Assembly (NCBI GenBank): GCA_032768795.1 | Contig: CP136493.1 | Span: 496,001 to 560,000, forward strand | From: Tremella fuciformis | Taxonomy: Eukaryota > Basidiomycota > Tremellomycetes > Tremellales > Tremellaceae | DNA length: 64,000 nt | Direction: 5' to 3' | Shown: positions 16,714 to 37,788 of the stretch, one piece after another | Position numbering within the stretch: the first letter of the stretch is position 1 | How the letters are laid out: each line of letters begins with the position of its first letter | Program-made: the position numbers and the translations under genes | Notes under the pieces: model-generated | The model's database searches: none | Told to the model about the DNA's origin: nothing | The model's input: only the letters and a program-made list of their open reading frames with translations

Positions 16714-17042
16714 ATGACAGGACGATCCTCGCCGCGCTCGCCACTCTGAGCACTGTCGACTTCGCCTGAGGGCGCGTGCAACGTAGGCCATCAGTTGCTG
16801 CCCCGCATCGCTCTTCTTTGCAACCCTCTCATGCGAGGACAGCCACCAGGCGTGGTCCTACACAGACTCACTGCCGCAAGGCATCGTTCCCAGTCTACTG
16901 CTCCGGCTGTTGCGATTGGGAAGCGGAGAAAGTCTGGACTGTGAACATGTGGAACAAGCGCCTGAATCACGATGGAGATAGGCCATGCGATTTCCGAGAG
17001 CCGACTTTGGAGCAGCAAGCTTTCAGCCAGCTGACTGAATAG
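16714..17042 (+). pseudogene. Probable decayed member of the small secreted Cys-rich (SSP) family
   Basis: From an ATG at 16714 the DNA resembles the SSP signal-peptide exon (encoding I-L-A-A-L-A-T-L-S-T-V-D-F-A) but only after a frame change, and that frame hits TGA near 16769. Downstream in the same frame is C-R-K-A-S-F-P-V-Y-C-S-G-C-C-D-W-E-A, reminiscent of the SSP core C-x3-C-x-C but with compressed spacing, then a distant Cys and a stop at 17042. It lies directly upstream of the intact SSP run. The resemblance is weak and could be chance; it is offered as a relic, not a gene. Confidence 0.3.
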
Positions 17043-17487
17043 GAAGCGTGGCCTGCTCGACATGTATCTTCATGAGGCGAGATCAAAGGCACAGCTGAGC
17101 TGCCGTGGCGAGGGATTGGCTGCCGCTGGATCACAGGCTGAGCGTCGTTCGAGCTTCAAATCGCTCTCGCAGATCCACGAGCCGAGCCCATTAACACAGT
17201 TGGAGCATTGCTTCCGGGTGCTATTGCCAATATCGTGGGCCGAACGAGGACATGCCGGCGCTAGAGATCATGGAGAGCATCGCTTCCAAGGGTCAAGTGC
17301 CGCACCCACGTACGTCTGACCCTCCGCCTTAAAGGCGGTCACCTGTACTGACCGGGCGAGGCCAGAGGCAAAGACGACTCATCGCTGCTGTCCCCAAGCC
17401 CCGCATCAGCTACACTGAGGACCGATGAGCGCGAGACACAATTCGCTAACGAGACCACCCTCTCGCCAAGCGTACGAAGCATGATCT

Positions 17488-17706
17488 ATGGAGGTCCCTC
17501 ACCGGATCGTCGGGCTATTCGTGGCAGTCCTCGCAAATGCCGCCCCAGCGAGTGGAAGAGATCGACTGGACCTGGAGGGCGAGCAAGATCTCATCAGCGG
17601 CTCACCCGATTGGCTCTCCGGTGCGTTCGTCGAGGAGGCGTCGTCGCCGGCGCCGCTCTGTTTGTACTGTGCAGCATACTCGGACCACAAGCAGGAAGGG
17701 CGTTGA
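17488..17706 (+). CDS. Candidate short secreted protein with C-terminal C-x2-C
   Basis: An uninterrupted 72-residue frame. The first 20 or so residues look like a signal peptide: M-E-V-P-H-R, then hydrophobic I-V-G-L-F-V-A-V-L-A-N-A-A-P-A-S-G. The rest is acidic and small, ending P-L-C-L-Y-C-A-A-Y-S-D-H-K-Q-E-G-R. The terminal C-x2-C resembles the extra pair that follows the core in SSP-E, -G and -H, but the central six-cysteine core is absent and there is no intron. It sits 150 bp before SSP-A. It may be a truncated paralogue, an unrelated secreted peptide, or a chance frame. Confidence 0.35.
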   Translation: MEVPHRIVGLFVAVLANAAPASGRDRLDLEGEQDLISGSPDWLSGAFVEEASSPAPLCLYCAAYSDHKQEGR

Positions 17707-17853
17707 GTCGAGACTGCATTGCACCGAGCGTGCGCGGGAATGGGCGAGAACGATATTGTATAAATCATACGCTGTTCATGGTGGGACCTGCTCGCCCGCT
17801 GCCCCTCCTCATATCTTTCCTCGCCTTACCCAACTTCGAGCTCGAAGAGTGCG

Positions 17854-18244
17854 ATGAAGGCCTTTTCTCTGCTCGCCCTCATCTTGGCGACTGTCAATGC
17901 CACTGCCGTCATAGCCAGTTCCTCCTTGAAAGACAAGTCAGCCAGCTGCTTTGCTCGCTTCACATGGGCTACAAGCTGAATGCCTCACAGACGCTTGCCC
18001 GACCCCGACCCCACATACTGCGGCGATGATGATTCCACCGGAGTGCTCTGCCCAGACTGGTGCAACTGCGTGCCCATCGATCAGCCGGACGGCAGTGTCC
18101 ACTACACCTGTGTTGTGCCGGGCACCCACGACCTTTGCACTCTCGAGTCAGTCCTTTTCACGCTGTTGTGATGCATGCGCTGACACGGTGCATTACTACA
18201 ACAGTGATCGTCGAGGCCTCGTTATGAATGCTCGAGTCCAGTGA
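17854..18244 (+). CDS. SSP-A: small secreted cysteine-rich protein, 92 aa
   Basis: Three exons (introns 17937-17990 and 18147-18204, both phase 2). Exon 1 encodes a signal peptide, M-K-A-F-S-L-L-A-L-I-L-A-T-V-N-A-T-A, and a short spacer ending K-D-K. Splicing creates Lys-Arg at the exon junction, a possible Kex2 site. Exon 2 is the mature domain: Y-C-G-D-D-D-S-T-G-V-L-C-P-D-W-C-N-C, then cysteines in H-Y-T-C and H-D-L-C, six in all. Exon 3 adds a basic tail, R-R-G-L-V-M-N-A-R-V-Q. TATAAA lies about 95 bp upstream of the ATG and the shared 3' element about 80 bp past the stop. The protein is presumably extracellular; its role is unknown. No named family is recognised. Confidence 0.75.
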
Positions 18245-19139
18245 ATCAGTGAGCGAGCCCACGGCTCTGAGGCAATACTGTAGGTTCCTCGTCGGTCGGT
18301 GCCCGTAGTCAGTTCTCGTGCATAGTCCTCAGACTCTAGATTCTTGCCCTGGCCATGCATGTCGATCAGCTCTCCCCCACTCTCTCATTCCCTTTGTGAG
18401 CGCATCGGTGAGTGACTATGGATGACGCCGATGTCCTTGTGTGGCATGCTCCACGGCCACTCATGCACCCATCCGACCCGCGGATTGATTGATCTATTCT
18501 CGACCTACTGACCACACGTCGCAAGTTTGCCTCTTGGTAATTCCCAACATCGGGGGGGGCGCAGATTGGCAAGAACATTATCAGAAAAGGTTCCACGGCG
18601 CCAAGCCTTTCTCTGACGGTGACAAACGTGCCGAGGGCGCAACCGAGACGCGGATTGATGGGAGCGGGGCCTATTCCGCCCTCAGCCATGCGCATCCCGA
18701 GTCGGACCATGGTCTTATTCGTATTTACATGTCAAATGCAGCTCTTTTGCGGTGCAGAGATTGCCAACTGCGAGCAACGGCTCCACAACTTGGTCACCGC
18801 TTTCACGTAGCGGATTGTCTCGCCGGGGTCGACGTAGCCTCCCTGCTCGCCGTCATACCGCGTGCCGATGTCGCTCGAGATCTGCTCCCACGAGCGAGGA
18901 ACCTCGCTACGATACGGGGGCCGAGCTAGCGCTGTAACTGTCTCGGGCTCTGGTCACCGGGTGGGGGAACAGCAGATGTTGGGGACGTTGCCAACGGCTC
19001 GTAGACAGGGGGATCGTGGAGTATAAAGCAACGCCTTGGCCGGCTCCCTCTTCCTCACGAGCTCTCTCAAGTCTCTCTCTTCGAACGCTCCCTACCCGCC
19101 TACCAACGCACCAGCTCACTCACCGTTTCACTCGACAAC
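18245..19139. other. Gap between SSP-A and SSP-B
   Basis: Holds the SSP-A 3' element and the SSP-B promoter (TATAAA at about 19021). Frames of 60-146 codons on both strands lack signal peptides, cysteine cores or recognisable domains. No gene seen. Confidence 0.5.
18323..18367 (+). promoter_or_regulatory. Shared SSP 3' element (copy after SSP-A)
   Basis: Block 1 TAGTCCTCAGA followed 25 bp later by block 2 CATGCATGTCGATC. The same two blocks follow SSP-B, -C and -E. Position after the stop suggests a 3' untranslated or polyadenylation signal (inference). Confidence 0.5.
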
Positions 19140-19534
19140 ATGAAGGTCATCGCCGTCCTCGCTGTCCTGGCCTCCACCGCCCTCGCCATGCCCTCGCTCC
19201 TCGCCAAGTCAGTGCCCCTTAGCGACGCGAGGAGATGCTGACTGTCAGGCAATACTACGACGACATCGACTACTGCGGTCCCAGCGAGCCCGGCTACTCC
19301 TGCCCCGAGTCGTGCGTCTGCCAGCAATCCGTCAGCCCTGACGGCGCGACCTACTACGTCTGCACCGACAAGACGAGCGGCTACCTCTGCGAAGGCTGGG
19401 GCTACGGGTGGTGAGTTCTTTCCTCCTCTACCTCTACCTCGGCAGCGTATGAAATGCAGCGCTGACTAGACAGGTACAACAAGCGCGACCAGGGCCTGGA
19501 GGGCCGCGACATCACTGAGGGCAAGGCCCTTTGA
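19140..19534 (+). CDS. SSP-B: small secreted cysteine-rich protein, 96 aa
   Basis: Three exons (introns 19208-19248 and 19411-19473, both phase 2). The signal peptide reads M-K-V-I-A-V-L-A-V-L-A-S-T-A-L-A-M-P-S. The mature domain has Y-C-G-P-S-E-P-G-Y-S-C-P-E-S-C-V-C, Y-Y-V-C and G-Y-L-C, the six-cysteine pattern of SSP-A with near-identical spacing, so A and B are the closest pair. Here the exon junction is Lys-Gln, not Lys-Arg. Aromatic residues are frequent (Y-Y-D-D, Y-Y-V, G-W-G-Y-G-W-Y). Exon 3 gives an acidic, charged tail ending E-G-K-A-L; it contains N-K-R-D, another possible dibasic cleavage point. TATAAAG lies about 120 bp before the ATG. Function unknown, extracellular by prediction. 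Confidence 0.8.
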
Positions 19535-20716
19535 GGGTCAGCTTACAGCGAGCCTCCGTCCGCCTTCCTGCACAGCTGCTGGGGGAGGGTCCGGTGCCAT
19601 GGTCTCTCGTTTGCTTCGTTGATACGGGCTGGAAAGAGTCTATAGTCCTCAGAGCTGCTTCGAGTTTGGACTCGATATAACTCGTCATGCATGTTGATAA
19701 TCTTCTCGCATACTCTCTGGCCACGCGTTCCCCCCCGCTACTTACGCGAAACAAGTCCCGATCGTAGAACGTTGCACCGTGGGATTTACTTCCTGACCAA
19801 GCAGGGCGGGGGAGATTTCTGCCCAACCGATAATCTGCCTTGATCACCTACGTGCGATTGAAGCGGGCGTCGTATGAGGCTGTAGCCGCATGTGACACTG
19901 GAAACTTGCGTGCATGTACGTACGTGAGCACTTCGCCGGCGAATCCAGCCTGCCCCGCTATGTTTGCGGATCCCTTTGCCTGGTCAAACCGACACGTAGC
20001 TTCACTCCGCTGGCCCGCCAAGCATGAGTCGACAGTCTGATTTCTCGCTGGTACAGACGCCCCCGTACGATCGGGGCTACCGTATATGAACGTCATCACT
20101 CCCCCATGTACCATCACGATCGGAAGTAGTAGGCGCAAGGCTGTACATAGCCGGCACCGATGACCCGTGCGTCGTGGTTTCTTTTGACCTGATTCCTGCG
20201 GAAGCTGGTCAGCGAATCTGACTCCCGGCATCTTGCGGCACATGCGCTCTGCTGGAGTCACCGGTCAGCAGGAATAACTGCGTCCGAGGCGACTACGCCC
20301 CGAATGCCACAGCGGGCGAAAGTGAGAGTCGCACTCGATCAGCGGCACATACAATAGTCGCAGGTCACGTCAACCCGGTATCTCATGGTCCTCGTCGTTT
20401 GTGCGGCACCTAGATCGCTTCTCCGCCCGCTCCACAAATCAGCCACACTGGCGCAAGTAGAGCGCTGCCGAGACGCTGCCAACTCGGCGGGCATGCGCGT
20501 CGGGCGGTGACCTGATAAGCAGATAAACGCGAGGTGACACGACGACCGAAAATGCCGACGACTCGCGAGTATATAGAGCCCGCATGTTGGCCTCCATCAT
20601 CTTCACGACTGCTACTCTCTACTCTCCCCGTTACTCTTGCTCCCGGGGCAGTCTCCAGGTCAAGCAACCCTCGATACACTCTGCAGCCCGCCGTTCTATC
20701 TGGACATCGCCTCGTC
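19535..20716. other. Gap between SSP-B and SSP-C
   Basis: Contains the SSP-B 3' element near its left end and a TATATAGA promoter motif for SSP-C at about 20571. Minus-strand frames of 111-137 codons occur but show no domain, start context or splice pattern that persuades me. Confidence 0.5.
19643..19703 (+). promoter_or_regulatory. Shared SSP 3' element (copy after SSP-B)
   Basis: TAGTCCTCAGA followed 37 bp later by CATGCATGTTGATAATC, starting about 110 bp past the SSP-B stop. Confidence 0.5.
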
Positions 20717-21105
20717 ATGAAAGCCTTTCTCCTCCTTGCTCTCCTCGCTGGCATCGTCGCCTCTCCCGGCCCCGCCATATACTCCAAGTGAGCTCGAGCT
20801 TCGTCTCTTGGTTGTCTCCTATCCGCATGGTCACGATACTGAATCTCAGGCGTGACCTATTTTGCGATCCCGAAGACCCCTCTCCCTGCCCGGGGGATTG
20901 CGAATGCACCGTGTTGCCACTCCTCGGTGTCGGAGTTTGCTTTGAACCTGGACCGGACCTCCTGGACTGCATTCTGGAACCGCCGTGCGTCACTCTTGTC
21001 TCCAACAGCGTAGAGAAGGTACTTATGACCAGTCCCACCGCAAGTGCCAGTACCACCAGTACCGCGCCCGGTGTCGGTGCGACGGCTTCGGTTTCAGTGG
21101 CTTGA
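20717..21105 (+). CDS. SSP-C: small secreted cysteine-rich protein with Ser/Thr-rich tail, 108 aa
   Basis: Two exons (intron 20788-20849, phase 2). Signal peptide M-K-A-F-L-L-L-A-L-L-A-G-I-V-A-S-P-G. The junction forms S-K-R-D, again a Lys-Arg pair. The core is F-C-D-P-E-D-P-S-P-C-P-G-D-C-E-C, then G-V-C, L-D-C and P-P-C. Instead of splicing to a third exon, the frame runs on through a tail rich in Ser, Thr and Ala (T-S-P-T-A-S-A-S-T-T-S-T-A-P), a likely O-glycosylation region, ending V-S-V-A. A possible GT donor after E-P-P could create an alternative C-terminus, but no comfortable acceptor was found. The acidic core and neutral tail set it apart from A and B. Function unknown. Confidence 0.75.
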
Positions 21106-21800
21106 GCGCCGTTGCTTCGCTTCTGCCCTCGTGGCGTCTGCCGTCTCTTGATAGTCGTCCAGTTTGACCCGTCTATAGTCCTGAAGAAGCTTCATATGCC
21201 TCGACATGAATGTACATCTCCTCCCCGCCCTCCGTGACCTTGCTGGCAAGGCAGATCCATTCGCCATTGCCACACACTGTTGGGCCACCTTGAAGGGTAG
21301 ACGTTCCACGCTCAAGTAGGTTTCACCTGATGTGCCGAATGAAGGCCAGCGCATGCAGAATCCCCTCGTATACTGCCGCGCCGCGGCCTTGCGGAGTGAA
21401 GAGGCCCTGGACGTGGACCTCAGTCCCGCAATGGGTACAGGTGTCTGCCATCTTTACGGTGAGGTCGTAGCCACCTGTGGGATGAGGTGACGACCGACCA
21501 CTTCCGGTACCATGAGGGGAGCATGTCCTCTGTGTGCGAAACGCACAAGTTGTCGTACTGCTGCTTGACCCTTCCCATGCCAATCAATCCACGCACCGCT
21601 TTCGCCCATGCGAGCCGATGTGCGGAAGGGGCCGATCTATGTTTGCCTTGCCCCACGTTGGTCACCAGACCACTCCGCCTGCTGCCGAGGCCAAGGCCTT
21701 CATCTGTGTGGCCGAGACCCCGAACGTGTGCTCATTCAGTCCACCTACCAGCAGGCTCCACCTACCAGCAGGCATGGTAAGATGTCAGATATCCTCCGCA
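21106..21800. other. Gap between SSP-C and SSP-D
   Basis: Contains the SSP-C 3' element and the SSP-D promoter region, with a short duplicated stretch (CCACCTACCAGCAGG twice, about 21740-21775). Frames of 80-97 codons on both strands lack recognisable features. Confidence 0.5.
21176..21218 (+). promoter_or_regulatory. Shared SSP 3' element (copy after SSP-C)
   Basis: TAGTCCTGAAGAAGC then CATGAATGTACATCTCC, about 70 bp past the SSP-C stop. Confidence 0.5.
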
Positions 21801-22168
21801 ATGCGCACCGCTCTGCTCACACTCCTCGTTTTCGCAGCCGGGTCAGGCCTTGTTGCGCCGGGGTCCACTATCATGTGAGATGGTCAGAGTCCCCGACTTG
21901 AGACGCCTAACCAGTGCAGCATTCGCAATAATGACTGCAACCCTTTCCAGGATACCGACACATGTGGCCCCGGCTGCAATTGTGTACTGGTCCCACTGGG
22001 CGTTTCAAATGTGTATGGGGTGTGCGTGACGCCCGAGAACAACCCGTGCGGTTCCAGCGCGACGTGAGTGCTCCACCTCTCCATGACCACGCATGCCCCT
22101 GACACCACAGCCAGCCTGGATACGACAGAGGCATTCCTCACGACGTATATGTGGAGATTCGGGGTTGA
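21801..22168 (+). CDS. SSP-D: small secreted cysteine-rich protein, 91 aa
   Basis: Three exons (introns 21875-21919 and 22064-22110, both phase 2). Signal peptide M-R-T-A-L-L-T-L-L-V-F-A-A-G-S-G-L-V-A. The core is D-C-N-P-F-Q-D-T-D-T-C-G-P-G-C-N-C, then Y-G-V-C and N-P-C: six cysteines, with Gly in place of the Pro that follows C2 in most paralogues. The junction residues are Ile-Ile, so no dibasic site is present at the splice point. The tail, T-Q-P-G-Y-D-R-G-I-P-H-D, is unlike those of A, B or E. This is the most diverged intact member in the first run. The TAGTCCT element of its neighbours was not found downstream. Confidence 0.65.
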
Positions 22169-23011
22169 TGGGTCTAGCGTGACAAGCTAAGGGACGTCAT
22201 TCAGCCATTCCATTGTAATAGATGCGTGCAGTCTCATACTTTCCCCATGAGGTGAAGCACGGCTCATTCCCGCGCTCTCAGGAGCTTTTGGTTACAATAG
22301 AGTGACCCTCAGATAGTTCCCGCAAGAGATGATCTGACTGGGGAGACCGATTCGACCTGTTCCTTGACAAGGTCGTCCCCTCTGACCCATGGTTCCGGTT
22401 CGCATTGCCAACCTACCATGAGATTCCCAATTGCTCGGGCGCGATGTTGCCTCGCCGCGGGCGAGAAGGCGATCGTTCCGCACTCGCTGTGCTGAGCGAT
22501 AGAATATCGAAAAGAGTGCCTTTTATTGACCGCTTGACAAATCAGGCCGGCCTGAGCTACAGCCGAGGGGCGAGTTCCTGATCAGCATCGCACACTTCGC
22601 CCCACATAGGAGCCCCGTGTGCGCACGCACAGTTTTTCACATTGTCAGCCGTACATCAGCTGTATCAAGGGTCGCCAGAATTCGTGCTAACGCTCGAGGT
22701 CTCGGCCTCGGCCCCAATGTAGTCTCGTACGTTGCAGAGCCAATGATCAAGCTATTTCCTCTCAGAGGATCGCCCCGGGGCGACGCCCAGCGCTGAGCGT
22801 GCTACGTCCTATCTTGGACAAGAAGTTATTCACTGGCGGAGTGATTTCCGTTCACTGCTTCTTCCGGTCCGGGGGCCGGCGGAAGCCTGCAGTCAGTAGC
22901 TATGTATTTGAAGGCTCTTGTCAGATGTCAGATCCCATCCCCATCCCCATAGCCCCATTTAGTCTCTCACAGCTCTTGACCTCCGCGCTTCGCGTCACTT
23001 CTGACTCCATC
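22169..23011. other. Gap between SSP-D and SSP-E
   Basis: No convincing gene. The right end is the SSP-E promoter, including a CCCATCCCCATCCCCAT triple repeat at about 22935-22950. Confidence 0.5.
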
Positions 23012-23429
23012 ATGAAGGTCCTCGCCCTACTTGCGCTCTTGGCTGCCATTGCCTCGGCGACCCCATCGCCGCACGTCAAGTGAGTGCCGCGTCTGCTTCT
23101 CATCTTCGTCGCTCATGACCCAGACGCGTGTCCGTGTCGACTCTTATCGGCAAGATACCCTGCTTGACCGATGCAAACTGCTCTGGCGGGTGCAAGTGTC
23201 TAAAGTTCACGACCTACGATGAGTTCACTCAAAAGATTGGGATCTGCTCGGACCCCAAGGGTAACAACCCGGCGTGCACCTCTTGCTTGGCCTCTGCCTC
23301 GTGAGTCCTGACGCGATGCTAGTCACCGACTCGGAGCGCCGACCCAACAGGACACGCGACCTGTTCGAAAGGGAGGCGGAGGCGTATGATCTGAACGCCA
23401 GGGGTCAGTCCGATGCCGCGGACTGGTGA
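23012..23429 (+). CDS. SSP-E: small secreted cysteine-rich protein, 107 aa
   Basis: Three exons (introns 23080-23123 and 23301-23350, both phase 2). Signal peptide M-K-V-L-A-L-L-A-L-L-A-A-I-A-S-A-T-P. The junction gives V-K-R-V, a Lys-Arg pair. The core is P-C-L-T-D-A-N-C-S-G-G-C-K-C, then I-G-I-C, P-A-C and T-S-C: the usual six plus a seventh in C-T-S-C, as in SSP-G and SSP-H. Exon 3 encodes a charged tail with E-R-E-A-E-A-Y-D. The E-A-E-A after Arg recalls the dipeptide spacers of fungal pheromone precursors, but this is a single copy and may be coincidence. Exon 1 is 68 nt, exactly as in SSP-B and SSP-F. Confidence 0.78.
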
Positions 23430-23518
23430 GACTTGGACAGAAACCCGTCCAGCTCCTCGCTTTCCGGGTTTCCCTTCGCTAGTGCTCTTCTCTCAGCTCG
23501 TAGTGCTCAGACTGTGCG

Positions 23519-23586
23519 TAGTCCTCGCGGGTCTTGATTTAGGGGGGTCTATCATCAGGCATGAATGTTCATCATCTCCCCGCACT
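23519..23586 (+). promoter_or_regulatory. Shared SSP 3' element (copy after SSP-E)
   Basis: TAGTCCTCGCGGG then CATGAATGTTCATCATCTCC, 90 bp past the SSP-E stop. Confidence 0.5.
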
Positions 23587-23595
23587 CGCACCTAG

Positions 23596-23931
23596 TTGCA
23601 TGACTTGCTCAGCATCAGTTGGCGTCCTCGATCACCATCACTGTCTGTCTCTTGGCCAGACCGTGGATCAGCGATACTGGTCTCGAGACTCGTGTACCTT
23701 CTGCAAACCAGATCTCCCGCACACACCGTGACTATCACGGACAGGTGTCACGCACATATGGTCACTCTGCGAGGAAACTCCGATTGCAGTGTCGGCGAGA
23801 TGCCTCTGCGATGTTCAGCGGCCGAAATCTGCCTCGGTACCGAGGAGAACATGATCTGGGGAAGCGTCGCAACATGCACTCACAAACACGCTCGCCCGCG
23901 GCGGTGCAGTCCCATCAGGCGGCCCATGTGA
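23596..23931 (+). pseudogene. Degenerate SSP paralogue lacking the third core cysteine
   Basis: The second half of this frame (cysteine core 23785-23907) reads D-C-S-V-G-E-M-P-L-R-C-S-A-A-E-I-C, then cysteines in V-A-T-C and R-R-C. Spacing is C-x8-C-x3-E-x-C-x14-C-x9-C: the SSP pattern with Glu exactly where the third cysteine should be. The first half is not a clear signal peptide, and no AG acceptor upstream restores the phase-2 junction seen in every intact member. Position, between SSP-E and SSP-F, supports descent from the family. Either a pseudogene or a strongly altered copy. Confidence 0.45.
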
Positions 23932-24093
23932 CTCCATGTCGGGGACAAGCGAGGCTTGACGAGGTGGTTCTTTCACAGCCGGTAATGGAACAGGCATGGG
24001 CTTGCATATCAAGCCCTTCCTTCTTCTCCCTTGCTTCTCTCTTCTACTTCTAGGTCTTTCATCCTTGACTTGCAACGGTAAAGCACAGGCAAG

Positions 24094-24398
24094 ATGAAGT
24101 GTTGCACCTTTCTGATCCTGCTCGCCATGACGGTTTGGGCGATGCCCAAGGTTGAAGTGGAGTGAGTTCTCATTGACCTCGTTTTGTATCACAGTCCATG
24201 GAGCTCAATGTCAGACTCGATCAAAGAACTGAGCTCCCTATCCTTACTCGCGGAGACACATGCAACGACGAGCCGTGTCCAGCCAGCTGCGAATGCAAGC
24301 TCTGGGAAGTAATCTTGGGGGAGCCCAAGTACAGATGCGAATGCCCCGACAAGCACAATGTAGGTCTGACCCCATCCGTCGCCACGAATCACGCTTAA
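24094..24398 (+). CDS. SSP-F: small secreted cysteine-rich protein, 83 aa
   Basis: Two exons. The phase-2 intron is 24162-24214; using the earlier AG at 24194 would shift the frame and lose every cysteine, so the later acceptor is preferred. Signal peptide M-K-C-C-T-F-L-I-L-L-A-M-T-V-W-A-M-P, itself with two cysteines. The core is T-C-N-D-E-P-C-P-A-S-C-E-C, then Y-R-C-E-C. Here the last two core cysteines are only one residue apart, unlike the 6-10 residues in the other members. The tail, V-G-L-T-P-S-V-A-T-N-H-A, is read through without a second intron. A poor match to the shared 3' element lies about 140 bp downstream (24531-24566). Confidence 0.7.
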
Positions 24399-24903
24399 GG
24401 AGCAGCGCCACCAGATTGAGAGCAGCTGAGATGGCTTGAGGGGAGAGCCGTACCTCTCACGGGACTGGGGCCCAACCGTCAGGCGGGAGTTATGAAGTGT
24501 ACTGCAGCATAACCTGCTTCTCGGCTTGGGTATAGCAGTCTTCGTCAAGGGGCATGACATGTACTACGAGTTGAACCACCAAACTGCTCGTCGTTGCGGC
24601 TCAACAGCTCTCCTCTGACGAGTTTGGGTGACTACCTGCTCTGCCTGAGTCACAGTTCACTGGACGCTTTCGGAAAGAGAGCTGCGATCTTGCAACAGGA
24701 GACAAGCCGTGAGATTGGCTTATGTTCTGTGTGTTCTGGGCTGCTGTGTGCTTCGAAAACCTCGTCAACGGCTCTGTAGCAACACCCAATACAGCTTCGA
24801 GGCACGATAATTGTAGTTCTTCACAGTCTGAGAAATGTCACCCGAGCTCATTCATCTTCGCGCGATGACAAGCCCTATTGCGCGCGCGCACCGGAAGCAA
24901 TCC
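24399..24903. other. Gap between SSP-F and a convergent regulator gene
   Basis: No gene seen. A degenerate form of the SSP 3' element (TATAGCAGTCTTC, then CATGACATGTAC) occurs at about 24531-24560. Confidence 0.5.
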
Positions 24904-27679: not shown

Positions 27680-27696
27680 CCTCTCTCTGACATTCG

Positions 27697-29520
27697 CTAC
27701 TTGCTATCGGGTAGAACGGTCGCTATCGCCTGTCTCACCACATCCACCAAGAAAGACAGCTCTTCCTCCGTCACGGTGTAAGGCGGACTCAACAGCACAT
27801 GATCACCTAAAATTCCATCCGCCTGAGCAGTCAACCTCACTGCGGGTATGCAATTGGCTTGACGACCTACCGCTCCTTTCATTCCGGGATAGATGACGGC
27901 CCCCAGTCGGATGCTCTCCTCCGCTAAAAGGTCGGCCAGAGGGAAATCAGCGGCAAACGGCTCTTTGGTCTCCTTGCTCTTGACAAATTCAATACCCCAG
28001 AAAAGACCCATGCCCCTGTGAAACCATGAGCAAGCCGAGGGGACCCAAGGACAAATCGGACGCACCGCACGTCTCCCACATTGGGGAGTGGCAGGATCCG
28101 CTCCACCAGCAGCTTCTCGAGTGCCTTGCCGCTTTCGTGGCAGCGATCTATCCTATTCCCTGTCAGTCCAAGCTGCCTCCCTTGCACGTCCGGATAGGCT
28201 GACAGACTGTGCTGATTGATAAACTTGTAACACTCCAGCGCCGCTCGGCATCCCATCGCACTGGACTGGAAGGTGTAGCCGTTCATGAACGCTCCGCTCC
28301 CTTTCCTGAATCCGTCTACCACCTTTTCGCTAATCAGAACGGCCGACAAGGGCGAGTAACCGCTGTTAAGACCTTTGCCGAGGACTTGAACATCCGGTCG
28401 ACAGTCCTCCCATTGCCAGGCGTGAAGTTTGCCGGTACGCCCAAACCCACACATGATCTTTCAGACATTCAGCTCCGGTGTCCTCTTGATCACGACGAAC
28501 ACAGAACACACCTCGTCGGTCACGAAGAGAGCCCCGTGTTTGTGACAAACTTCTCGCATTGCCTGCATATATCCTGGAACAAAGGGCACGCATCCAGTGG
28601 CAGCGCCAACAACTGTTCACATCAGCTCTGTCCGTACAGAAAAACGACGTCGACTGACCCGGCTCCATGAAAAATGCTGCAACGGTATCCGGACCAAGCT
28701 CGAGGAACTTGCTGTCCAGCTCGTTTGCCAGTCTCCCCACATACTGATCCATTGACTCGCCCGGCTTGGCGTGTCTGTAGTAGTAACATGGAGATACCTC
28801 GTGGAAAACCGGAGCGAAGAGGGGCAAGAACAGTGCCCGTCGCCGGGTATGTCGACCTAGCTCCAAAGCTACGTCTGTCAGTCTTTCCCTTCGGCGAAGA
28901 CTCAAAACAACTTGCCTCCAAGACTCGTTCCGTGATACGACTTTTGCCTTGCGATGAATTTGACTCGCTGAGGCTCGCCCTTCTCCACATGGTACTGCCT
29001 GCACAGCTACCCAATCAGCCGACATTCGGCCAAGAAGGGGAAGGGCAAGCCTCACCTTGATCGCCGACTCAATCGACTCGCTACCGCCGTTGAGGAACAA
29101 CGCTTTCGACATCCCCGACCCTTCGCACAACATGTCTGCAAGCTCTTCGGCAGGCTATGGAGGCCAGCGTCAGCATCATTTCGGCTGACGGCAAAGTCTG
29201 CGACTAACCTGATGGGCAAATGTAGCGGAATTAAGATAAGGAAGTTGGGCGACTTGCTGCGATATGCCTTCTACGATCTGCGGAACACAGTGGCCAACAC
29301 TGACCACGGCTGCTCCTCCACAGCCGTCCAAGATCTTCCGGCCGGTGTCCTGCTCATACAGGTAGTTGCCTTGGGCTCTTGCAATAAAGATCGGCTCATG
29401 CGAAAGCTTTCGGTGGAACACCTTCGAATCTGCCATGGTCTCTCCGTTCCTCATCTTGCCGTTGATCTGCCCAGCTTCAGTCTCGACGCTTGTGTGGGAA
29501 GCCGGAATGGGGATCGACAT
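27697..29520 (-). CDS. Class III pyridoxal-phosphate aminotransferase
   Basis: Multi-exon gene of roughly 450 residues. N-terminal region: I-F-I-A-R-A-Q-G-N-Y-L-Y-E-Q-D-T-G-R-K-I-L-D-G, the entry of class III enzymes. Then F-L-N-G-G-S-E-S-I-E-S-A-I-K (phosphate-binding turn), A-A-F-F-M-E-P, F-V-T-D-E-V-M-C-G-F-G-R-T-G-K (the D-E-V segment contacting the cofactor) and V-L-G-K-G-L-N-S-G-Y, where the Lys should form the Schiff base. The C-terminus holds G-L-F-W-G-I-E-F-V. These enzymes move an omega- or alpha-amino group to a keto acid; the substrate is not evident. It is divergently transcribed from a carboxylesterase across a 251-bp gap. Splice sites are inferred from motif continuity. Confidence 0.87.
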
Positions 29521-29771
29521 CTTTGGGCTGACCAGTATGGAGGCGGTCTGGAGCTGTCCATCACCTTTTGTAAATCCACAGGCGCATCATTAGCACAATC
29601 CGGCATTGCCTGGCCCCGTCGGTGTGATACCGGCGCCGTCTTCGCCGACGGCACGTTCCTGCTCCGAGCGCCGTAGGGCGGTCCCGTTTCTCAAAGCTCG
29701 GCACCTCCCTTGGCCGATGCCGTTGTTGGCGCAACTGAGCGACAGGCGGTGCTACAAAGACACGTCCAGCT
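29521..29771. promoter_or_regulatory. Putative bidirectional promoter, aminotransferase/carboxylesterase
   Basis: The two divergent genes are separated by only 251 bp, so their control elements must overlap. It contains GGCGCCG-type and CGGT-rich sequence, but I could not identify a specific Zn2Cys6 site with confidence. Confidence 0.4.
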
Positions 29772-31842
29772 ATGGTAGGCGGTACTCAATTTGCAGGCCA
29801 GATCTGTGGAAAAATGACAAATCCAGTCAACGATTTGGGCGGCTACGAGAAAACCACTTGGAAGATTGAAGGATTGGGCGAGATCATAGGATGGAACAAC
29901 CCGGATAGAACAATCCAGTCAGTCGTCTCTCATATCGCTCGACTTGCCATCGAACGATAACACCAGGTTCTTCGGCGTCCCGTATGCCGATCTGGAAGCC
30001 CGATTTCGTCACTCCACGCTCAAGACCACATGGCGCGCGAATGCTTGCGACTGCACCAAACTTCGAGGCTATTGTCCTCAGCCACACCGGGCATTCTACC
30101 CGTTCTTGATTGCCGATCGCCCCAACGCCGGCGAGATGTATATTGACGAATGGGACAGCCTGAACATGCAGATTACCTTGCCCCCAGGCACAACCCCCGC
30201 GGCCAAGCTGCCTGTGTTAGTGTATATTCATGGCGGCGCGTTCATCTTCGGCACCGGCAACTACAGCATACTCGACGGCAGGGCCTTGGCCAAACTGGTA
30301 AATTAACCATCATAGAGGGGCCTCGAGGAGCTGAGCAGTCCAGTCGGCGGAACTCGAGATGCCCACCATCATCATTTCGATCAACTACAGAACCGGCTTC
30401 TTCGGCGTCGGTTGCGATTCGAGCCACGCTATCATCTCTGGCTGACAAGATGCAGTTCCTGTGCTCTGACGACATTGCGGCGGACAACCTCGCCTGTGGC
30501 TACAATCCCGGCAATTACGCTCTGAATGACCAAAAGAATGCCCTCTTGTGGATCCACAACGTGCGTGTCACTTGACGCGGCGCGAATCTGATACTGATCC
30601 TCCTGAAGTATATCGGCAGCCTTGGTGGGGACCCCTCAAGAGTGTTGGTCGCCGGCCAGTCCGCAGGCGCGGGTAGGTTTTTCGTGAGCTTCACAGTCGT
30701 GCCGCTTACTCTCCCAGCTTCGATGGACGTCCATCTTCGCGCACCGCACAACAATCTCTTCTCGTCTGTCATTCTGCTCTCGGGTACTGCTCCAATCTGC
30801 GGTATGTATACGCCCAAGGAGTACGAAGTATTGTACTACAAGCTCCTCCGCGTACTTGGGATCTCTCAAAACCTTTCCCCAGAAGAACGGCTCAGTCAGC
30901 TACGTGCTGCGCCCCACCAGGCACTCAGCAGAGCCGCATATATCGTCTTTCAAGGTGTAGACGGACCTCAATTCGGTATCGGCACCGACGTTTCCGTGTT
31001 TGGCCAAGATTTCGAGCTGCCCAGACCGTCCCAGTATCCCGGCAGTAAGCTGCCTTTCAACGGCAAGCTGATAATGGGGGACTGCAAGCGTATGTCTGTC
31101 TTCTTCCACGTTCCAGCGCCGACCACTGATGGTCTAGACGAAGGAATTATCTATTCCCAGGCATTTCAGCATCACACGGGAGCTACAGCTATCGAGACGA
31201 TCAGCAAGTATCTCAAAGAACCGTTCTTATCTGAGTACCTTGCGCACTACGGCATCAACGACAAGCAGGACGAGAGGAAGGTCATGTCATGCATTGAAGC
31301 TCTGCTCTCCGACAGCATGTTCATTGCTCCGCCGTACTTCATCGCCAAGGCCAACCCCCAACAGTGCTACGCCTACCACTTCAACCAAGCTTCCCGGTTC
31401 GACAATGCCTGGGGCGGGAAGGCACACCATTCTCTCGACTACATGTGTGCGTTCTCAACCCGTTCTGCTCCCAGAGCACGCCATGACTGACCTTGCAGTC
31501 ACTTTTGGCAACCTCGCCGAGCGGCTCACAGAGCCGGAGAACGCACTGGCGCGCCAGATGGGCAGCGACTTCATTTCGTTCGCCAACGGAGTCGACCCAT
31601 ATCCGCCCGCCGGGGAGGCGCATCGGGTTTACGGGCCTAACGAGGTTTGCGAGACCTCTCGGGTGAGCCCCAGGGACACCGAATGGTTCGACAAGATGGC
31701 GCCTCACATGGACGAGCTCATGAAGATGGCTGCAGACTTCAATGTCCGGCAGCCCGAGCTGCTGAGCGAGGAGTTTGGTCCGGGGACAAAGAACGAGCGG
31801 GAAGTGCCTCAACTGAAATTTGAGCCAGAGTCAATCGCATAA
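29772..31842 (+). CDS. Type B carboxylesterase/lipase family hydrolase
   Basis: Six introns link an alpha/beta-hydrolase. Exon 1 gives W-K-I-E-G-L-G-E-I-I-G-W and joins (intron 29918-29966) to Q-F-F-G-V-P-Y-A-D, the N-terminal signature. L-V-Y-I-H-G-G-A-F is the oxyanion hole, S-I-N-Y-R-T-G-F-F-G follows, N-Y-A-L-N-D-Q-K-N-A-L-L-W-I-H-N precedes the elbow, and V-A-G-Q-S-A-G-A contains the nucleophile Ser (G-x-S-x-G). H-H-S-L-D-Y-M-F near the end supplies the catalytic His. There is no signal peptide, so an intracellular location is likely. Alternative start at 29814. Intron boundaries around 30299-30349 and 30402-30449 are inferred. It is neighbour to the aminotransferase and likely co-regulated with it. 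Confidence 0.87.
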
Positions 31843-32381
31843 GTAGGACATAGAGCTTCGGTTTGTCATGGCTACACTATGGTCGCCGTGGCTGATGGAT
31901 GCATCAATTGCAGCCATCTCGGTCTGAGATGCTGCCTTCGCAAAGCTCCTTTGTGGATTTGGTGCGGGTCTAGACTGGTGAACATCTCTGCGAGCGCTTT
32001 CACCTGACTGTACAGAGGTAAGCCAGAGAATAGCACGAAGAGCGTCATTCTCGGCGGACCATGGGCGTCCTTGACGAGCGTGCTAACGAGGTGGACGGGG
32101 CAGACTTGCATCACTCAGAGCGAGGCCACACTCATTGTCTGTCCGCCTCCATCACTTGACATACGAGTCTAAACCGCTATCGTCAAGCCAGCATGGACGT
32201 CCAGCGCAATATTAGAGCGAGTACCAAATCATTCATGAAGCATCTAATAAGAGAAAATCTATGTATCCAACTTGAATATGTCAACGTGTTCTAAGGCGAT
32301 CGACCCCTCAACGGTCTCCGCGCTCCGCCTCGTTCGCCCCAGACTGGCTGCCCCAACCCGCGGTAGAGCTAGGTCCATCGA
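31843..32381. other. Gap between convergent esterase and MFS genes
   Basis: Short frames only, no gene recognised. The AT-richer stretch at 32160-32290 is probably 3' untranslated and terminator sequence for both genes. Confidence 0.5.
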
Positions 32382-34330
32382 TCAGTACATATAACGGAAC
32401 AGTGGCGACTTGTCCCCCATCTCCTCCAGCTCTTCGGAGGAGAGTGGAGTCACCATCATCCTTTTCCTCTTGTTGTCCCTGACACAGATGTACCAGTTCA
32501 TCAAGGCAGCCAAAATCGCGAGAACGGCCGCCGCCTGTTTGAGGTCAGGCGCGCCCCGACCTTCCTATACACCATGGTCACTCACGATGGAAATGCTATA
32601 CCCGGTCTTGTAGGAGGGGGCCTCTCTTCCCAGATAGATGTTGGTGCCGACTGCCGCAGAGATGTTCCCGATACTGAGCGCCAAAGCAGTTGAGATAGCC
32701 CTCTTGCCTCGGCCTGCCGCATTATTCGCTGAGAACGAGTCAGTCCAAGCTTTGATGAGAGACTACCAATGAGGGCATATTCACCTTGCCATGCGAGCGA
32801 GGCTGGGTAGCCCGCATAAAATCCAGCCGGGATGAAAAACAGGAACCCGTATCTGGTCGCAGCCATACGGTCCTTCGGCAGGGCGAACTCGGCAATCAAG
32901 CCAATCGTCCCCAGAGTAAAAGGAATGATGACCGCAGGCGCACGTCTCCCGACCTTGTCCGAGATGAAGGCCGTGGTGATGGTGACCACCGCCCCGACTG
33001 CATAGAGCGGAACAGTCATAAGTTGAGCGATCTCCGCCGTGTAGCCGAGCTGAACGAGGACCGTTGGAAGCGAGTACGAGAAACTTATAGTTAGCGCCTG
33101 GTAGCGGACAGGCGGGAGGAGGCGCACCCATAGATGGGCACATTGGCGCCGACGCCGAGGATCCCACATAACCAAATTTTGATATCCTTGACAGCGTCCA
33201 AGAAGTCCTTCTTGCGAAAAGGCGTGTGTGCAGCCCCGGCATCTCCCGACCTGACGTTCACAGCGTCCAAGTACTGCTTTTCGGCGTCGCTCAGCCATCG
33301 CGCGGAGAGCGGGCCGTCTGGTAGGACGAAGTAGACAAGCGGGGCAAGTGCGCACGTCACCATCCCCTCCAAGAGGAACAGCCACCCTGTCCAGCCATCA
33401 GTCACTCAACTTCCTGTCCCAGCCAGACTTAGGGTCACGTACGCCACGATGCCAGACCGCCCACATTCTTCATGTGCGCCACGCCGTAGGCGATCAACCC
33501 GGAGAAACTCCCAGCGAGAACTCCGAAGGAGTAGAATATGCTTATGCGAGATTGCAGCTCTTCCCGAGGGTACCACGTTGACACAAGGAAGACCGCCCCC
33601 GGCTATTTCACATCAGCTGTGCTCTACCAGCACACGGGATGTAAGGAGACCCACGAAGAAGCCGGCTTCAGTAACACCTAGGAAGAGCCGAGCGCTGAAA
33701 GCCTGGGTCAGCTCTCTTGTCGGTACGGGTAATGATGGGCTCACGTAAGGGCACCGGCGTAATTGTGCACGAGACCGCTGCACACTGTACAGACGCCCCA
33801 AGCGAAGGTGATGAGCGCAATCCACAGGCTGGGCCGGACTGTGAAGCTCCTTCAGCAATCATCCAAGGTGAGAGAGTCCCCGGTGTGGACCGACCTTTCT
33901 GCAGCAGTATGTTTGAGGGTATCTCAAATATCACGTACGTGAACAAGAAGACAGTGGCGAGCAGGTTGTACTTGGTCGTATCGAGACCCAAACTCTGCTT
34001 GATGCCGAGGATTGAGGCGTTGGCCAAAGTCCCTCGGTCAACGAAACTAAAATCGATCAGCTCATGACCGGAAGGGGTCGATCATTGCCCCATGCCTCCC
34101 GGGACTCACCTGATGAGATACAGCGCGACCAATGGCGGGAGAACATGCAAGTCGACTTTGAGGAACAGCTTGCGTCGTCTCGCCTTGTCCCATCCTGCCA
34201 AGACAGCTTCGTGCTCGACCGTACGAAGGTCTTCTGCATCGGTCTTGTCGTTGAGTACCGTCACAGTCACCGGGGCGTCCTTGAGGTCTGGCACGTTGTC
34301 GTGGACTGGGTCGTTCGCCATCATCGCCAT
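32382..34330 (-). CDS. MFS anion:cation symporter (allantoate-permease-like), second copy
   Basis: Minus-strand, multi-exon. The acidic N-terminal tail (M-A-M-M-A-N-D-P-V-H-D-N) leads to K-V-D-L-H-V-L-P-P-L-V-A-L-Y-L-I and, after an intron, F-V-D-R-G-T-L-A-N-A-S, the helix 1-2 signature of the ACS family. Later exons give F-E-I-P-S-N-I-L-L-Q, W-L-F-L-L-E-G-M-V-T, a central loop with R-W-L-S-D-A-E-K-Q-Y-L, helices 7-10 (L-G-Y-T-A-E-I-A-Q-L-M-T-V-P), K-V-G-R-R-A-P and helix 12. The tail ends E-L-E-E-M-G-D-K-S-P-L-F-R-Y-M-Y. It is related to the 9.9-11.8 kb gene by family only. Lying between the esterase and the lipocalin, it is the likely importer for that gene group. Exon joins in 33.4-33.9 kb are uncertain. 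Confidence 0.85.
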
Positions 34331-34875
34331 TCTGATTATGCAGGGGCCCTGGACTTGCGTGATGCACGAAGGCCCGAGCAGTCCATTGCACATGTTTATA
34401 TGCACTGAGCCGGCGCAACTTGCTCGTTGAGCTTATCGTGCCAAATGTCCAGCCGGCAACGGCGAACGGACCAGTCGGCAGCCGTCGGTCCGGAGGGGGA
34501 AGAACCAATTAGATGGCGCCGTCCAAGGCATGGCGATGGACGGTGCGGCCAGTGAGCGCCGGCCCCAGGACATGTCTCCTCGTGAGCTCAGACTCGCAAC
34601 ACACGACAGCCAGAATGTATGCCTATACGAGTGAGTGAGTAAGAAATTTGGGTATGTACAAGCGCAAGGGCGAGACACCATAGGACATCACGGCTGGGCG
34701 GGTGCGGCAACCCCATCCTATTGTAATTGGAGTCACTTCCGAGCGTTTCACGACGAGATCCGACCACTTTCCAGAAGTATCTTCTATCCGGTGGAGAGCC
34801 AGGTCCCATTGAATCGAACATGGCGAGAGACAATCGCAGAGCCATATAGTCGATGCATTTTTGTGATCCCTTCCC
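34331..34875. other. Promoter region of the second MFS symporter
   Basis: Between two minus-strand genes. Frames of 80-148 codons are antisense shadows or lack features. No gene seen. Confidence 0.5.
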
Positions 34876-35457
34876 TCACAGCTTCCGCCAGGTGAGCACC
34901 GCCAGCCGTTCCTCGCCCTTTACTTTTATGGGACCATCTGTGCTGAGGACAAGAGTATTACCCTCCTCCAATCGGAGCACCCTCCTCGTCTGTACCTCGC
35001 CAAGCCAGTTCGGGTAGGAGCACACCTGCATGGTGTGCTTCACCAGCGCTCCTCCGTCCGCGCCCTCTTCCACGCTGAACGGTCCCGAGTAAGCAAGGTA
35101 GCGAGAGCCCGCGTTGGCCCATTCCTCGGTGCTACCTGAGAGGACATCGGGTCCAGCGAAGCGTTTTGCGCCGGGCGCCATGAGCTGGGCGGACCTGGCA
35201 ATCATATCAGTGTCTCCAGAGCAGACAGAGTGCATGTACTCACATGTAAGCGTCCGGGGTGTACATGATGACCTTTGGCGGGTCAACACAGCCTCCTGAC
35301 CAAACGAAAATGCTCTTACCCCAGTGGCGTCTTTGGTCATTGGGTATATGACGTCTTCTCCATTGCCATCGCCAACGCCTTTTGAGCTGATGGCCCGTGT
35401 CGCCACGTACGAGACCAGCTGCCAGGAGCCGATGAGCTTGCTTTTGAGGTCACTCAT
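34876..35457 (-). CDS. Lipocalin-like domain protein, 161 aa
   Basis: Three exons totalling 161 residues, the normal size for this fungal and bacterial lipocalin-like family. The N-terminal L-I-G-S-W-Q-L-V-S-Y is the G-x-W strand that closes the barrel. Splicing recreates the family's most conserved stretch, Y-P-M-T-K-D-A-T-G-V-I-M-Y-T-P-D-A-Y-M-S with A-Q-L-M. Later strands give Y-L-A-Y-S-G-P-F-S-V and L-S-T-D-G-P-I. Members are small cytosolic barrel proteins often found beside metabolic genes; some catalyse late isomerisation or hydration steps, others have no assigned reaction. The Met chosen lies 45 nt inside the longer frame and fits family length. It forms the right edge of the 25-35 kb group. 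Confidence 0.85.
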   Translation of the reverse strand: MSDLKSKLIGSWQLVSYVATRAISSKGVGDGNGEDVIYPMTKDATGVRAFSFGQEAVLTRQRSSCTPRTLTCEYMHSVCSGDTDMIARSAQLMAPGAKRFAGPDVLSGSTEEWANAGSRYLAYSGPFSVEEGADGGALVKHTMQVCSYPNWLGEVQTRRVLRLEEGNTLVLSTDGPIKVKGEERLAVLTWRKL

Positions 35458-36468
35458 GCTGTCAATGCCGTTCAGAGGGAGATAAGCCCAGAAAGCACGC
35501 ACAGTAAGATATATATGCCGTCCGCGGGTAACTTAGGAGAGGCGCATCGGGGGGCTAGACGTCCGATCGCCGACCCAAGTCTCCTCAGGCGCCTCATTGG
35601 CCACCGTGTCAGTACGTACGTCCAATGGCATTAGCAGCGACTACCGGGCAAAGGTGTCGCTGCATAGCCATGAAGCACAGGTCTGGGCTTGACGAGACAG
35701 CGAGCGAGGAACTAGTGATGGTCGCGTTACATCTATGTGTACGGCGCGTCCCGTTTTTCAACCTTCCTGTCGATCCGTATGTGTGGTTTCATCTGACGCC
35801 TCTGTCTTTGATGGCCGGATGTCAAGGATTTTTAAGAGAGTCTGGACCCTCTGGTCGTCCTCACACGACAGGTTGTGTGCGTGACATTCACGGGCCTGAA
35901 CAACATTTCTTTTGCAGATCGGCTCACACACATCTTCACGGCGACTCGATAGACCGATACTCACTACTGTCGACTAGGACCGTGCGCGGACATACATCCG
36001 GTCCAAGTCCACCAGTTTCACCGACATCCACCAGTTCAGAACAGTACAGCTCGACAGTTCAGGCGCGTCGGAGGACTACTGTACCGTCCCTCTCAAGACG
36101 ACGCCTACTCGCTTCACTCGCTGCACACAAAGTGATCTACATGAGGCAGGGAATAGTCGAGGCAACAGGGCCGCGCCCACTCCGTGCCTCCTTGTCTCAC
36201 TACTCTCCCTATAGCCATGTCTTGCCTCGCTTGTGCGACCGCCGTCCGGACGGAGGCAGATAGCTCGAGCAGCGCCAAGACTCCCTCGAAGGGCGCCGTG
36301 TAGTTCCGCCGCTCCAGGCGTGTTATGGTGTCGCAGAGCCGACGGTAGCACGCTGTATATACATACAGTATCCCTGTCCCGCCTGCCTCTCAAAGTACGA
36401 TTCATATAGTCATAGTCACTCTCGTCAGCCATTTGACCCATACCATATTAAAGACTCCTCCGGACAGG
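35458..36468. other. Divergent intergenic region, lipocalin/SSP-G
   Basis: About 1 kb between divergent genes. Frames of up to 212 codons on the plus strand have no recognisable domain. TATATGCC at about 35511 may serve the lipocalin gene; TGTATATACATAC at about 36355 and CCATATTAAA at about 36442 precede SSP-G. Confidence 0.5.
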
Positions 36469-36905
36469 ATGAAAGCCTTCGCCATTCTCTCTGCGCTCAT
36501 GGCCACTATCGTCCTCGCCTCGCGCTCTCCCTCCGAACGCCGCAACGGGCGAGCATGATCCCTTCAGGAGAGCACAGACCGGTGCTGACTTTCAGCGAGG
36601 TGACCATCGACGATCTCTCGAACGAGCTGATCTGCGACCCCCTCGACAGCCAGTGCCCCGAGTGGTGCTACTGTCAAGAGTGGAAGGTGGCAGGCTACAA
36701 GAAACACATCTCCACTTGCGTGAGCGTGTTCGGCGGGTACTGCGACCCCTGCTCCTGGGACTATGATACCGAAGCGTCAGTACTTATCTTCTTTGACTTG
36801 TCGCGCTGATCGCACAGCGAGGCGCTCCCTTCTGATTCGGCCTCTACCGCCAATTCGACCGCTCCGGCCAAGGCGAGGCGCACTCGCGCCCCTCTCCAGG
36901 GCTAG
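36469..36905 (+). CDS. SSP-G: small secreted cysteine-rich protein, 115 aa
   Basis: Three exons. Intron 1 is best modelled as GC-AG (36549-36595, donor GCGAGC), which restores the phase-2 junction of the other members; intron 2 is 36776-36817, also phase 2. Signal peptide M-K-A-F-A-I-L-S-A-L-M-A-T-I-V-L-A, spacer with E-R-R-N (a dibasic pair just before the junction). The core is I-C-D-P-L-D-S-Q-C-P-E-W-C-Y-C, then S-T-C, G-Y-C and D-P-C: seven cysteines with the extra C-x2-C of SSP-E and SSP-H. The tail is Ser/Thr/Ala-rich then basic (A-K-A-R-R-T-R-A). It lies 12 kb from the main run, past the metabolic gene group. Function unknown. Confidence 0.72.
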
Positions 36906-37413
36906 CTTAGCTCTTGACAGTAGGTTTCTTCCCAAGGCCGGTCCCCTTGTTTGCGATACTGAGTTGACAGGCTCTCGTGCCCTGATCCCGACTCGCTGGA
37001 GCAGGAGGAGCGCAAGATTGGCCTGACGATTCCGTTTCTTCTTCTCGTTCCGTCTCTACGTAGTGGTCCCGCGTACCTCTACTCTCATGCATTCATTTGG
37101 GAGTCTGTTCGTGACTGAGCTGCCGCGGGACCAGGATAGAGATGCGCACATGGGATTACCTGTTCATCTCGTCAGCCACTCTCATAGCTCGTGACGCCGC
37201 TCGTCTCTCCCCGGTGCCGGCCTCCTCTCCGCAGACATGTACGCTTTCTTCTCTCTAACCCACTCACTGAGAGCCCGAGGGGAGATACAGGACAATCACA
37301 AGGCGAATGATGTAGTCTGTACGGAATACACGTCGTTGAGCTGGAGCCTGTCAGCCTATACAATACATCGCTTCGTTCGTTCTTCATTTGCTCATTCTCC
37401 ACCCGCATCCGAC
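36906..37413. other. Gap between SSP-G and SSP-H
   Basis: No gene seen. A weak version of the SSP 3' element (TAGTGGTCC at about 37061, CATGCATTCAT at about 37086) is present. Confidence 0.45.
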
Positions 37414-37788
37414 ATGATGTACAAGCCCTTCGTAGTGCTCTGCTTCTGTACAGTGGTATGGGCAGCACCAACGACTCTGAAGGACCGGTGAGACTCTCGA
37501 GTTGCGGGATCCACTAGTCCGGCTGATCATCAGACCTCTACGGCCCAGGTACGACGACTGCGAGTACAACTGCAACATTTACGAAAAGACCTGCCCGGTG
37601 GGATGCACCTGCGTGGAGGATGACGGTGGGTCGGGGCACGGGACTTGCATGAACGTGAAGTTCTGGACGCCTTGTCCGCTGTGCGACCTCGGGCTGTGAG
37701 TGTTCCTCCTTCCTCCTCAACTCAAGACGGCTAATCCCTCCCTCCCGAGCTAATACGAAGGGAGCGAGACGAAGGCATCGAAGTCTGA
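37414..37788 (+). CDS. SSP-H: small secreted cysteine-rich protein
   Basis: Exon 1 encodes M-M-Y-K-P-F-V-V-L-C-F-C-T-V-V-W-A-A-P, a signal peptide with two cysteines, and a spacer ending K-D. Phase-2 intron 37488-37533; the junction gives D-R-P-L-R-P-R-Y. The core is D-C-E-Y-N-C-N-I-Y-E-K-T-C-P-V-G-C-T-C, then G-T-C, T-P-C and P-L-C, with one extra early cysteine and the terminal C-x2-C. Reading through gives TGA at 37697-37699 (79 residues). That stop overlaps GTGAGT, and splicing 37696-37760 gives a charged tail, E-R-D-E-G-I-E-V, ending at 37788, matching the three-exon plan of SSP-A, -B, -D, -E and -G. The longer form is annotated. Confidence 0.7.

Follow-up and report, generated by a model that had tools for sequence, protein, structure and literature searches.

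The closest described systems are small secreted knottin families of fungi. In the poplar rust Melampsora larici-populina, the MLP124266/AvrP4 fungal knottins comprise 13 members with signal peptides, six conserved cysteines and a cystine-knot core (PMC6889267), and Avr9 together with the Histoplasma/Ajellomycetaceae expansion of KNOTTIN 'Fungi1' likewise represents expanded small secreted families with a six-cysteine core (PMC4503680). Knottin-like effector candidates of Venturia inaequalis have little similarity to known proteins and were grouped by structure prediction (PMC9632046). The fungal knottins of these three papers act as effectors or are candidates for that role, and they come from pathogens of plants and animals; titles and abstract openings among the literature matches listed name no knottins or such a family for Tremellomycetes. 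Here we describe an array of eight genes for small secreted-looking proteins (SSP-A to SSP-H) in a 64,000-nucleotide window (C4:496001-560000) of a 28.1-Mb genome assembled in 11 contigs. We tentatively read their products, at somewhat under an even chance, as secreted acidic disulfide-locked miniproteins that most likely act outside the cell on protein targets of other organisms.

The initial annotation of the window had placed eight plus-strand genes at 17854-24398 and 36469-37788, with precursors of 80-115 residues, a signal peptide and a shared core C-x(4-9)-C-x3-C-x-C-x(8-16)-C. In the six frames of the window this pattern has eight matches, all on the plus strand, and they fall exactly in those genes and nowhere else. 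The pattern was derived from the same eight genes; its chance level is a mean of 0.11 and a maximum of 2 matches per window (100 second-order Markov windows). A looser cysteine pattern gave no extra match in the window and none in the 20 kb flanking it on either side. With splice donors and acceptors picked by hand, all eight genes yield complete precursors, of 82-115 residues. The spliced models, with the loop lengths between successive cysteines, are as follows.

17854-18244, plus strand: SSP-A, exons 17854-17936, 17991-18146 and 18205-18244, both introns phase 2; 92 residues, 6 cysteines after the signal exon; core 18019-18111; loops 9-3-1-13-8.
19140-19534, plus strand: SSP-B, exons 19140-19207, 19249-19410 and 19474-19534, both introns phase 2; 96 residues, 6 cysteines; core 19274-19363; loops 8-3-1-13-8.
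20717-21105, plus strand: SSP-C, exons 20717-20787 and 20850-21105, single intron, phase 2; 108 residues, 7 cysteines, Ser/Thr-rich tail; core 20863-20940; loops 7-3-1-10-9-5.
21801-22168, plus strand: SSP-D, exons 21801-21874, 21920-22063 and 22111-22168, both introns phase 2; 91 residues, 6 cysteines; core 21936-22025; loops 8-3-1-13-7.
23012-23429, plus strand: SSP-E, exons 23012-23079, 23124-23300 and 23351-23429, both introns phase 2; 107 residues, 7 cysteines; core 23161-23247; loops 5-3-1-15-9-2; near-orthologue P0002.
24094-24398, plus strand: SSP-F, exons 24094-24161 and 24215-24398, single intron, phase 2; 83 residues, 6 cysteines; core 24261-24338; loops 4-3-1-13-1.
36469-36905, plus strand: SSP-G, exons 36469-36548, 36596-36775 and 36818-36905, both introns phase 2; 115 residues, 7 cysteines; core 36633-36719; loops 6-3-1-14-7-2; near-orthologue P0001.
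37414-37788, plus strand: SSP-H, exons 37414-37487, 37549-37695 and 37761-37788, both introns phase 2; 82 residues, 8 cysteines; core 37571-37648; loops 3-6-3-1-11-8-2.

Intron 1 follows the signal exon and is phase 2 in 8/8 genes; intron 2, present in A, B, D, E, G and H, follows the core and is phase 2 in 6/6. That the cores are chance open frames, as the lack of a Pfam or NCBIfam family match might suggest, is barely credible against eight cores where 0.11 are expected, common intron phases and orthologues with conserved cysteines. The first intron of SSP-G (36549-36595) has a GC-AG boundary, and the donor sequences in SSP-A, -B and -G are GTCAGT or GTCAGC. Each precursor begins with a hydrophobic stretch (best 10-residue hydropathy 2.48-3.09), consistent with a signal peptide. 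Read from the gene models, intron 1 interrupts a Lys-Arg pair within its Lys codon in SSP-A, -C and -E, an Arg-Arg pair lies shortly upstream of intron 1 in SSP-G, and the tail exons of SSP-A, -B and -G carry a dibasic pair. Kex2-type trimming is therefore plausible but not family-wide, since such pairs are present in some members only.

The measured spacing is Ca-x(4-9)-Cb-x3-Cc-x-Cd-x(10-15)-Ce, and an additional cysteine follows 7-9 residues past Ce in 7/8 members and 1 residue past it in SSP-F, so that both the core and the further cysteine expected in most members are borne out. Like MLP124266/AvrP4, the SSPs are small signal-peptide proteins of a basidiomycete multigene family. In MLP124266, the disulfide-bonded cysteines 39, 44, 50, 55, 58 and 64 give loops 4-5-4-2-5, whereas loops of 3 and 1 are invariant in 8/8 SSPs and the two sets of loop lengths do not agree; 7/8 SSPs, moreover, lack a cysteine before the core and have their sixth cysteine after the hairpin (PMC6889267). 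MLP124266 also differs in its long flexible N-terminal half and in its origin in a plant pathogen, the poplar rust (PMC6889267). The 'Fungi1' families, compared here by description, come from ascomycetes (PMC4503680). The Venturia families share with the SSPs their scant similarity to known proteins and differ in belonging to an ascomycete plant pathogen and in being expressed during infection, the SSPs being predicted from gene models (PMC9632046).

The general knottin spacing quoted in the rust study, C-x2-7-C-x3-10-C-x0-7-C-x1-17-C-x4-19-C with six cysteines (PMC6889267), is a loose pattern, and four of the eight SSPs fit it (C, E, G and H); in A, B and D the first loop is 1-2 residues too long, and in F the last loop is 1. 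A knottin further has a hairpin sheet that bears the later cysteines, and disulfides I-IV, II-V and III-VI, of which one passes through the ring that the others form. In SSP-H, and in no other member, a cysteine precedes the core (C-x3-C), at the usual place of the first knottin cysteine, and SSP-H also has a C-terminal pair. SSP-E and -G lack the first-position cysteine and keep the pair, which gives them seven cysteines, and A, B and D have one C-terminal cysteine where E, G and H have the pair; every member but H carries its sixth cysteine behind the hairpin. These layouts could form a graded series, a cystine knot caught rewiring by natural circular permutation of the knottin order (II-III-IV-V-VI-I), an idea that we consider unlikely. 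Judged from loop lengths alone (4-9, 3, 1, 10-15 and 7-9 in the permuted order), the 1-4, 2-5, 3-6 pairing would be left formally intact. EGF-like (epidermal growth factor-like) and pacifastin-like spacings were set aside for their different loop lengths.

Five cysteines align across all members (MAFFT). Outside them the sequences are as different as the initial annotation had described: over the 28 pairs, mean identity is 21% for the cores (C-C columns excluded) and 35% for the signal exons. Around the signal exon, SSP-B and SSP-E have 70% identity in a stretch of 81 bases. A profile search of the kind that the annotation had proposed, run against 5.8 billion proteins, brought up five candidates, of which two passed at an expectation value (E) of 0.1: P0001 (E 1.4e-8) and P0002 (E 1.5e-7). 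An alignment of the six members other than E and G gave no candidate homologue. P0001 is the counterpart of SSP-G (52/60 identical) and P0002 that of SSP-E (47/56 identical), each with 7/7 cysteines kept, and their substitutions avoid the cysteines in a pattern that would be expected of translated proteins. These orthologues bear on the proposal that the SSPs are components of the fungus's own wall or surface, held there by Ser/Thr-rich tails or disulfide cross-links and divergent through weak constraint. Such tails end SSP-C and -G, and the odd cysteine counts of C, E and G could serve cross-linking, but 6/8 members have no Ser/Thr-rich tail, and the E and G orthologues are 84-87% identical with all cysteines kept; constraint is therefore not weak, and we regard this alternative as quite unlikely.

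Known families do not convincingly cover the array. NCBIfam matched 0/8 precursors at E 1 and Pfam matched one, SSP-H to IBR_2 (E 0.0075); the H core alone scores 9 bits against a cut-off of 27, and we infer that the precursor match also lies below the curated cut-off. Pfam Albumin_I (PF08027) was rejected as a candidate: its best core, D, reaches 10.9 bits (E 0.38) against a cut-off of 27, on a stretch outside the core, and in the array's own genome it matches four places, none over the cut-off, with matches in 3/14 control genomes too. Rfam gave nothing in the window at gathering thresholds. The family thus appears to be convincingly covered by no Pfam or NCBIfam family and, as far as these libraries show, is unnamed, in keeping with its initial description as previously unnamed.

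The mature parts, with ends set by hand near the exon junction or the signal end, are acidic in 8/8 members (isoelectric point (pI) 4.05-4.89; net charge -2.3 to -9.3 at pH 7). Cationic antimicrobial peptides and cysteine-stabilized (CS)-alpha-beta defensins carry a net positive charge and, in the defensins, a helix plus sheet. Neither feature was found in the SSPs: all eight mature parts are acidic, and structure models made for SSP-B and SSP-G contain no helix. The acidity argues against peptides of the cationic, membrane-active type and favours roles in protein binding. A set of membrane-active antimicrobial peptides would agree with proteins that are small, secreted-looking, disulfide-rich and duplicated, but is very unlikely given these charges, even with a core of SSP-E that by itself reaches +0.7, and given the two helix-free models. 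Because the mature parts are acidic throughout, a cationic antimicrobial role is less likely than the initial annotation had allowed; what falls from its suggestion of antimicrobial peptides is the classical cationic type.

Four of the genes also share a two-part signature downstream of the stop codon, first spotted by eye and counted afterwards: TAGTCCT, then CATGMATGT 29-43 bases on (start to start), at 71-109 bases after the stop.

18323-18362, plus strand: TAGTCCT...CATGCATGT behind SSP-A, 79 bases after the stop.
19643-19694, plus strand: TAGTCCT...CATGCATGT behind SSP-B, 109 bases after the stop.
21176-21213, plus strand: TAGTCCT...CATGAATGT behind SSP-C, 71 bases after the stop.
23519-23568, plus strand: TAGTCCT...CATGAATGT behind SSP-E, 90 bases after the stop.

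These are the only four joint occurrences in the window; 200 Markov windows (plus strand) contain none, and in the other DNA examined the joint signature occurs only in loci overlapping the same four places. By itself, CATGMATGT turns up 0.93 times on average in a random window, and 4 times at most. The signature is not found behind D, F, G or H. In local alignments of the downstream regions, 5/28 pairs rank in the top two of about 60 random scores, all five within A, B, C and E, and only the C-E pair is clearly above random (36 versus a maximum of 24); DNA searches with the signature regions of B and E returned self-matches only, not even one another. We read the signature as marking a subgroup that may have been born by duplication or may share a 3' control element. 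Beyond being a trace of duplication, it might have a function in processing or regulation.

Eight genes in two blocks with common intron phases and low core identity agree with the tandem, fast-diverging family of the initial annotation, and the paralogues would, most simply, have arisen through local duplication. Each gene would make a modular secreted precursor: a signal exon, a cystine-core exon between phase-2 introns and a short tail exon, the last not separate in C and F. Removal of the signal, followed by presumably Kex2-type trimming at dibasic sites where these are present, would release a miniprotein that is acidic, locked by disulfides and built around a knottin-like hairpin. Such a miniprotein would most likely act extracellularly, by binding proteins that belong to competitors, predators or a host, and target binding would explain why the loops between cysteines diverge quickly and the framework stays. 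Action on other organisms is suggested by the predicted secretion, tandem duplication, better-kept leader and variable loops; which organisms these would be is an inference of ours. Predicted secretion and paralogue diversity would suit a role in mating or self/non-self recognition; a partial Pfam scan, of 20 window frames, contained no mating-type or pheromone gene, and we think such a role highly improbable.

Weak support for the hairpin comes from the two models (pLDDT, the predicted local distance difference test score, of 69 for SSP-B), which partly show a hairpin fold of the core; the family is perhaps knottin-like. In one alignment, a core profile matched the plant knottins AG41 (8ahk; E 0.039) and MCoCC-1 (2knp; E 0.44). 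There they share with the SSPs a C-x3/4-C-x-C step, behind which come a hairpin and a final cysteine, and they differ in that 7/8 SSPs have no cysteine before the core.

Several findings count against the miniprotein reading. The models are middling in confidence and both built on one set of sequences. At E 0.001, Foldseek found no match to either model; for the B model the top match is a toxin (E 1.2) and the other matches listed are unrelated, and for the G model the toxin ranks 42 of 85 (E 7.4), below unrelated proteins. With the two orthologues added to the alignment MCoCC-1 was left at E 5.1, and the six-member alignment gave nothing. Two controls in which the non-cysteine letters were shuffled had as their best matches a large, unrelated fusion protein (E 0.25) and a hexatoxin (E 0.74). 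Dibasic sites lie at or near the exon 1/2 junction in only 4/8 members (A, C, E and G). The cysteine counts of C, E and G are odd (seven), and a free thiol or a dimer is therefore predicted for these three. The SSP-E core by itself is near neutral (pI 7.76, about +0.7). Finally, 8-base words are shared among the eight downstream regions at random level (top 3/8; of 500 random draws, 329 gave 3 and 29 gave 4).

Because the first plant-knottin value beats the controls but fails across alignments, we do not use the match as evidence of descent, and the sequence link to plant knottins is set aside. The knottin-type resemblance noted initially thus draws weak support from the two models and none that is robust from the plant-knottin profile match. 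The same match touches the alternative that the SSPs are secreted protease inhibitors, in which an exposed loop between cysteines would block a foreign or own extracellular protease. Squash and pacifastin-type miniproteins inhibit in this way, and the C-x3-C-x-C step and modelled hairpin would be compatible with small inhibitor scaffolds, as would the weak match to MCoCC-1 in two alignments. That match is gone in the third alignment, the low identity of the cores leaves no conserved loop as a reactive site, and Pfam matched no inhibitor family at E 5 (cores) or E 1 (precursors); we hold inhibitors to be unlikely.

The initial annotation had also named decayed copies in the array, and this claim found no support. 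Profiles of cores and signal exons, scanned over six-frame fragments of at least 12 residues from the window and its two 20-kb flanks, recover the eight genes clearly (E 6.3e-13 or better for cores, 6.8e-5 or better for signal exons) and only these. The next-best core fragment (E 0.53) is an other-frame overlap with the first exon of SSP-E, and nothing of note lies upstream of SSP-A in 16714-17850, the first part of the annotated region: among the matches listed, the best fragments in 16.4-17.7 kb reach E 7.6 (core profile) and E 14 (signal-exon profile). Two fragments in the downstream flank match the signal profile (E 0.0098 and 0.036) with no core behind them. Highly decayed copies may escape such profiles.

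The rest of the genome was searched with single proteins (B, G, E, C and D): each query brought up itself and no other member, and C in addition one frame (E 0.66) without C-x3-C-x-C. Such searches miss even the array paralogues and so cannot exclude others. A fixed CPxxCxC codon motif occurs at 297 places versus 204 for a reversed control. From 100 listed places we took 83 (17 dropped by eye), of which 63 passed the filter and 40 were fetched, and 1/40 met the core pattern. That place was rejected: read by eye, its opposite strand looks like a nucleotide-binding ATPase.

The array is split between SSP-F and SSP-G by a metabolic-looking group (28366-35502), in which frames for a carboxylesterase and Lipocalin_5 score above Pfam cut-offs and a sugar/major facilitator superfamily (MFS) transporter below. 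Directly behind SSP-H, 38492-39610 (plus strand) has a secreted-looking start, and the frame 39029-39610 (plus) falls just under the cut-off for Ricin_B_lectin (E 7.4e-6, 26.6 of 29 bits); it is possibly another secreted factor of the region. A frame at 1541-2590 (plus) matches a Tc1/mariner-type transposase (HTH_Tnp_Tc3_2 E 3.6e-15, DDE_3 E 1.6e-10), and a long frame in the downstream flank (L004 6480-7500) looks, by eye, like part of a mobile element.

A phosphatidylserine decarboxylase frame in the window (45881-46726, minus strand) is 99% and 96% identical to two proteins. Among 120 of 7013 matches listed, the most similar named proteins come from Kwoniella (72%), Naematelia (69%), Cryptotrichosporon (69%), Kockovaella (67%) and Cryptococcus (67%), presumably all Tremellomycetes, and ascomycete matches begin at 62-65%. 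The comparison points to a Tremellomycete, on the thin basis of a single gene.

The SSP family is ordinary in kind for fungal secretomes and unusual in its lineage. A tandem array of this type in a Tremellomycete would suggest that knottin-like scaffolds serve further conflicts, of microbe against microbe or against predator. The array would also offer a family of acidic scaffolds and perhaps an example of cysteines migrating within a knot.

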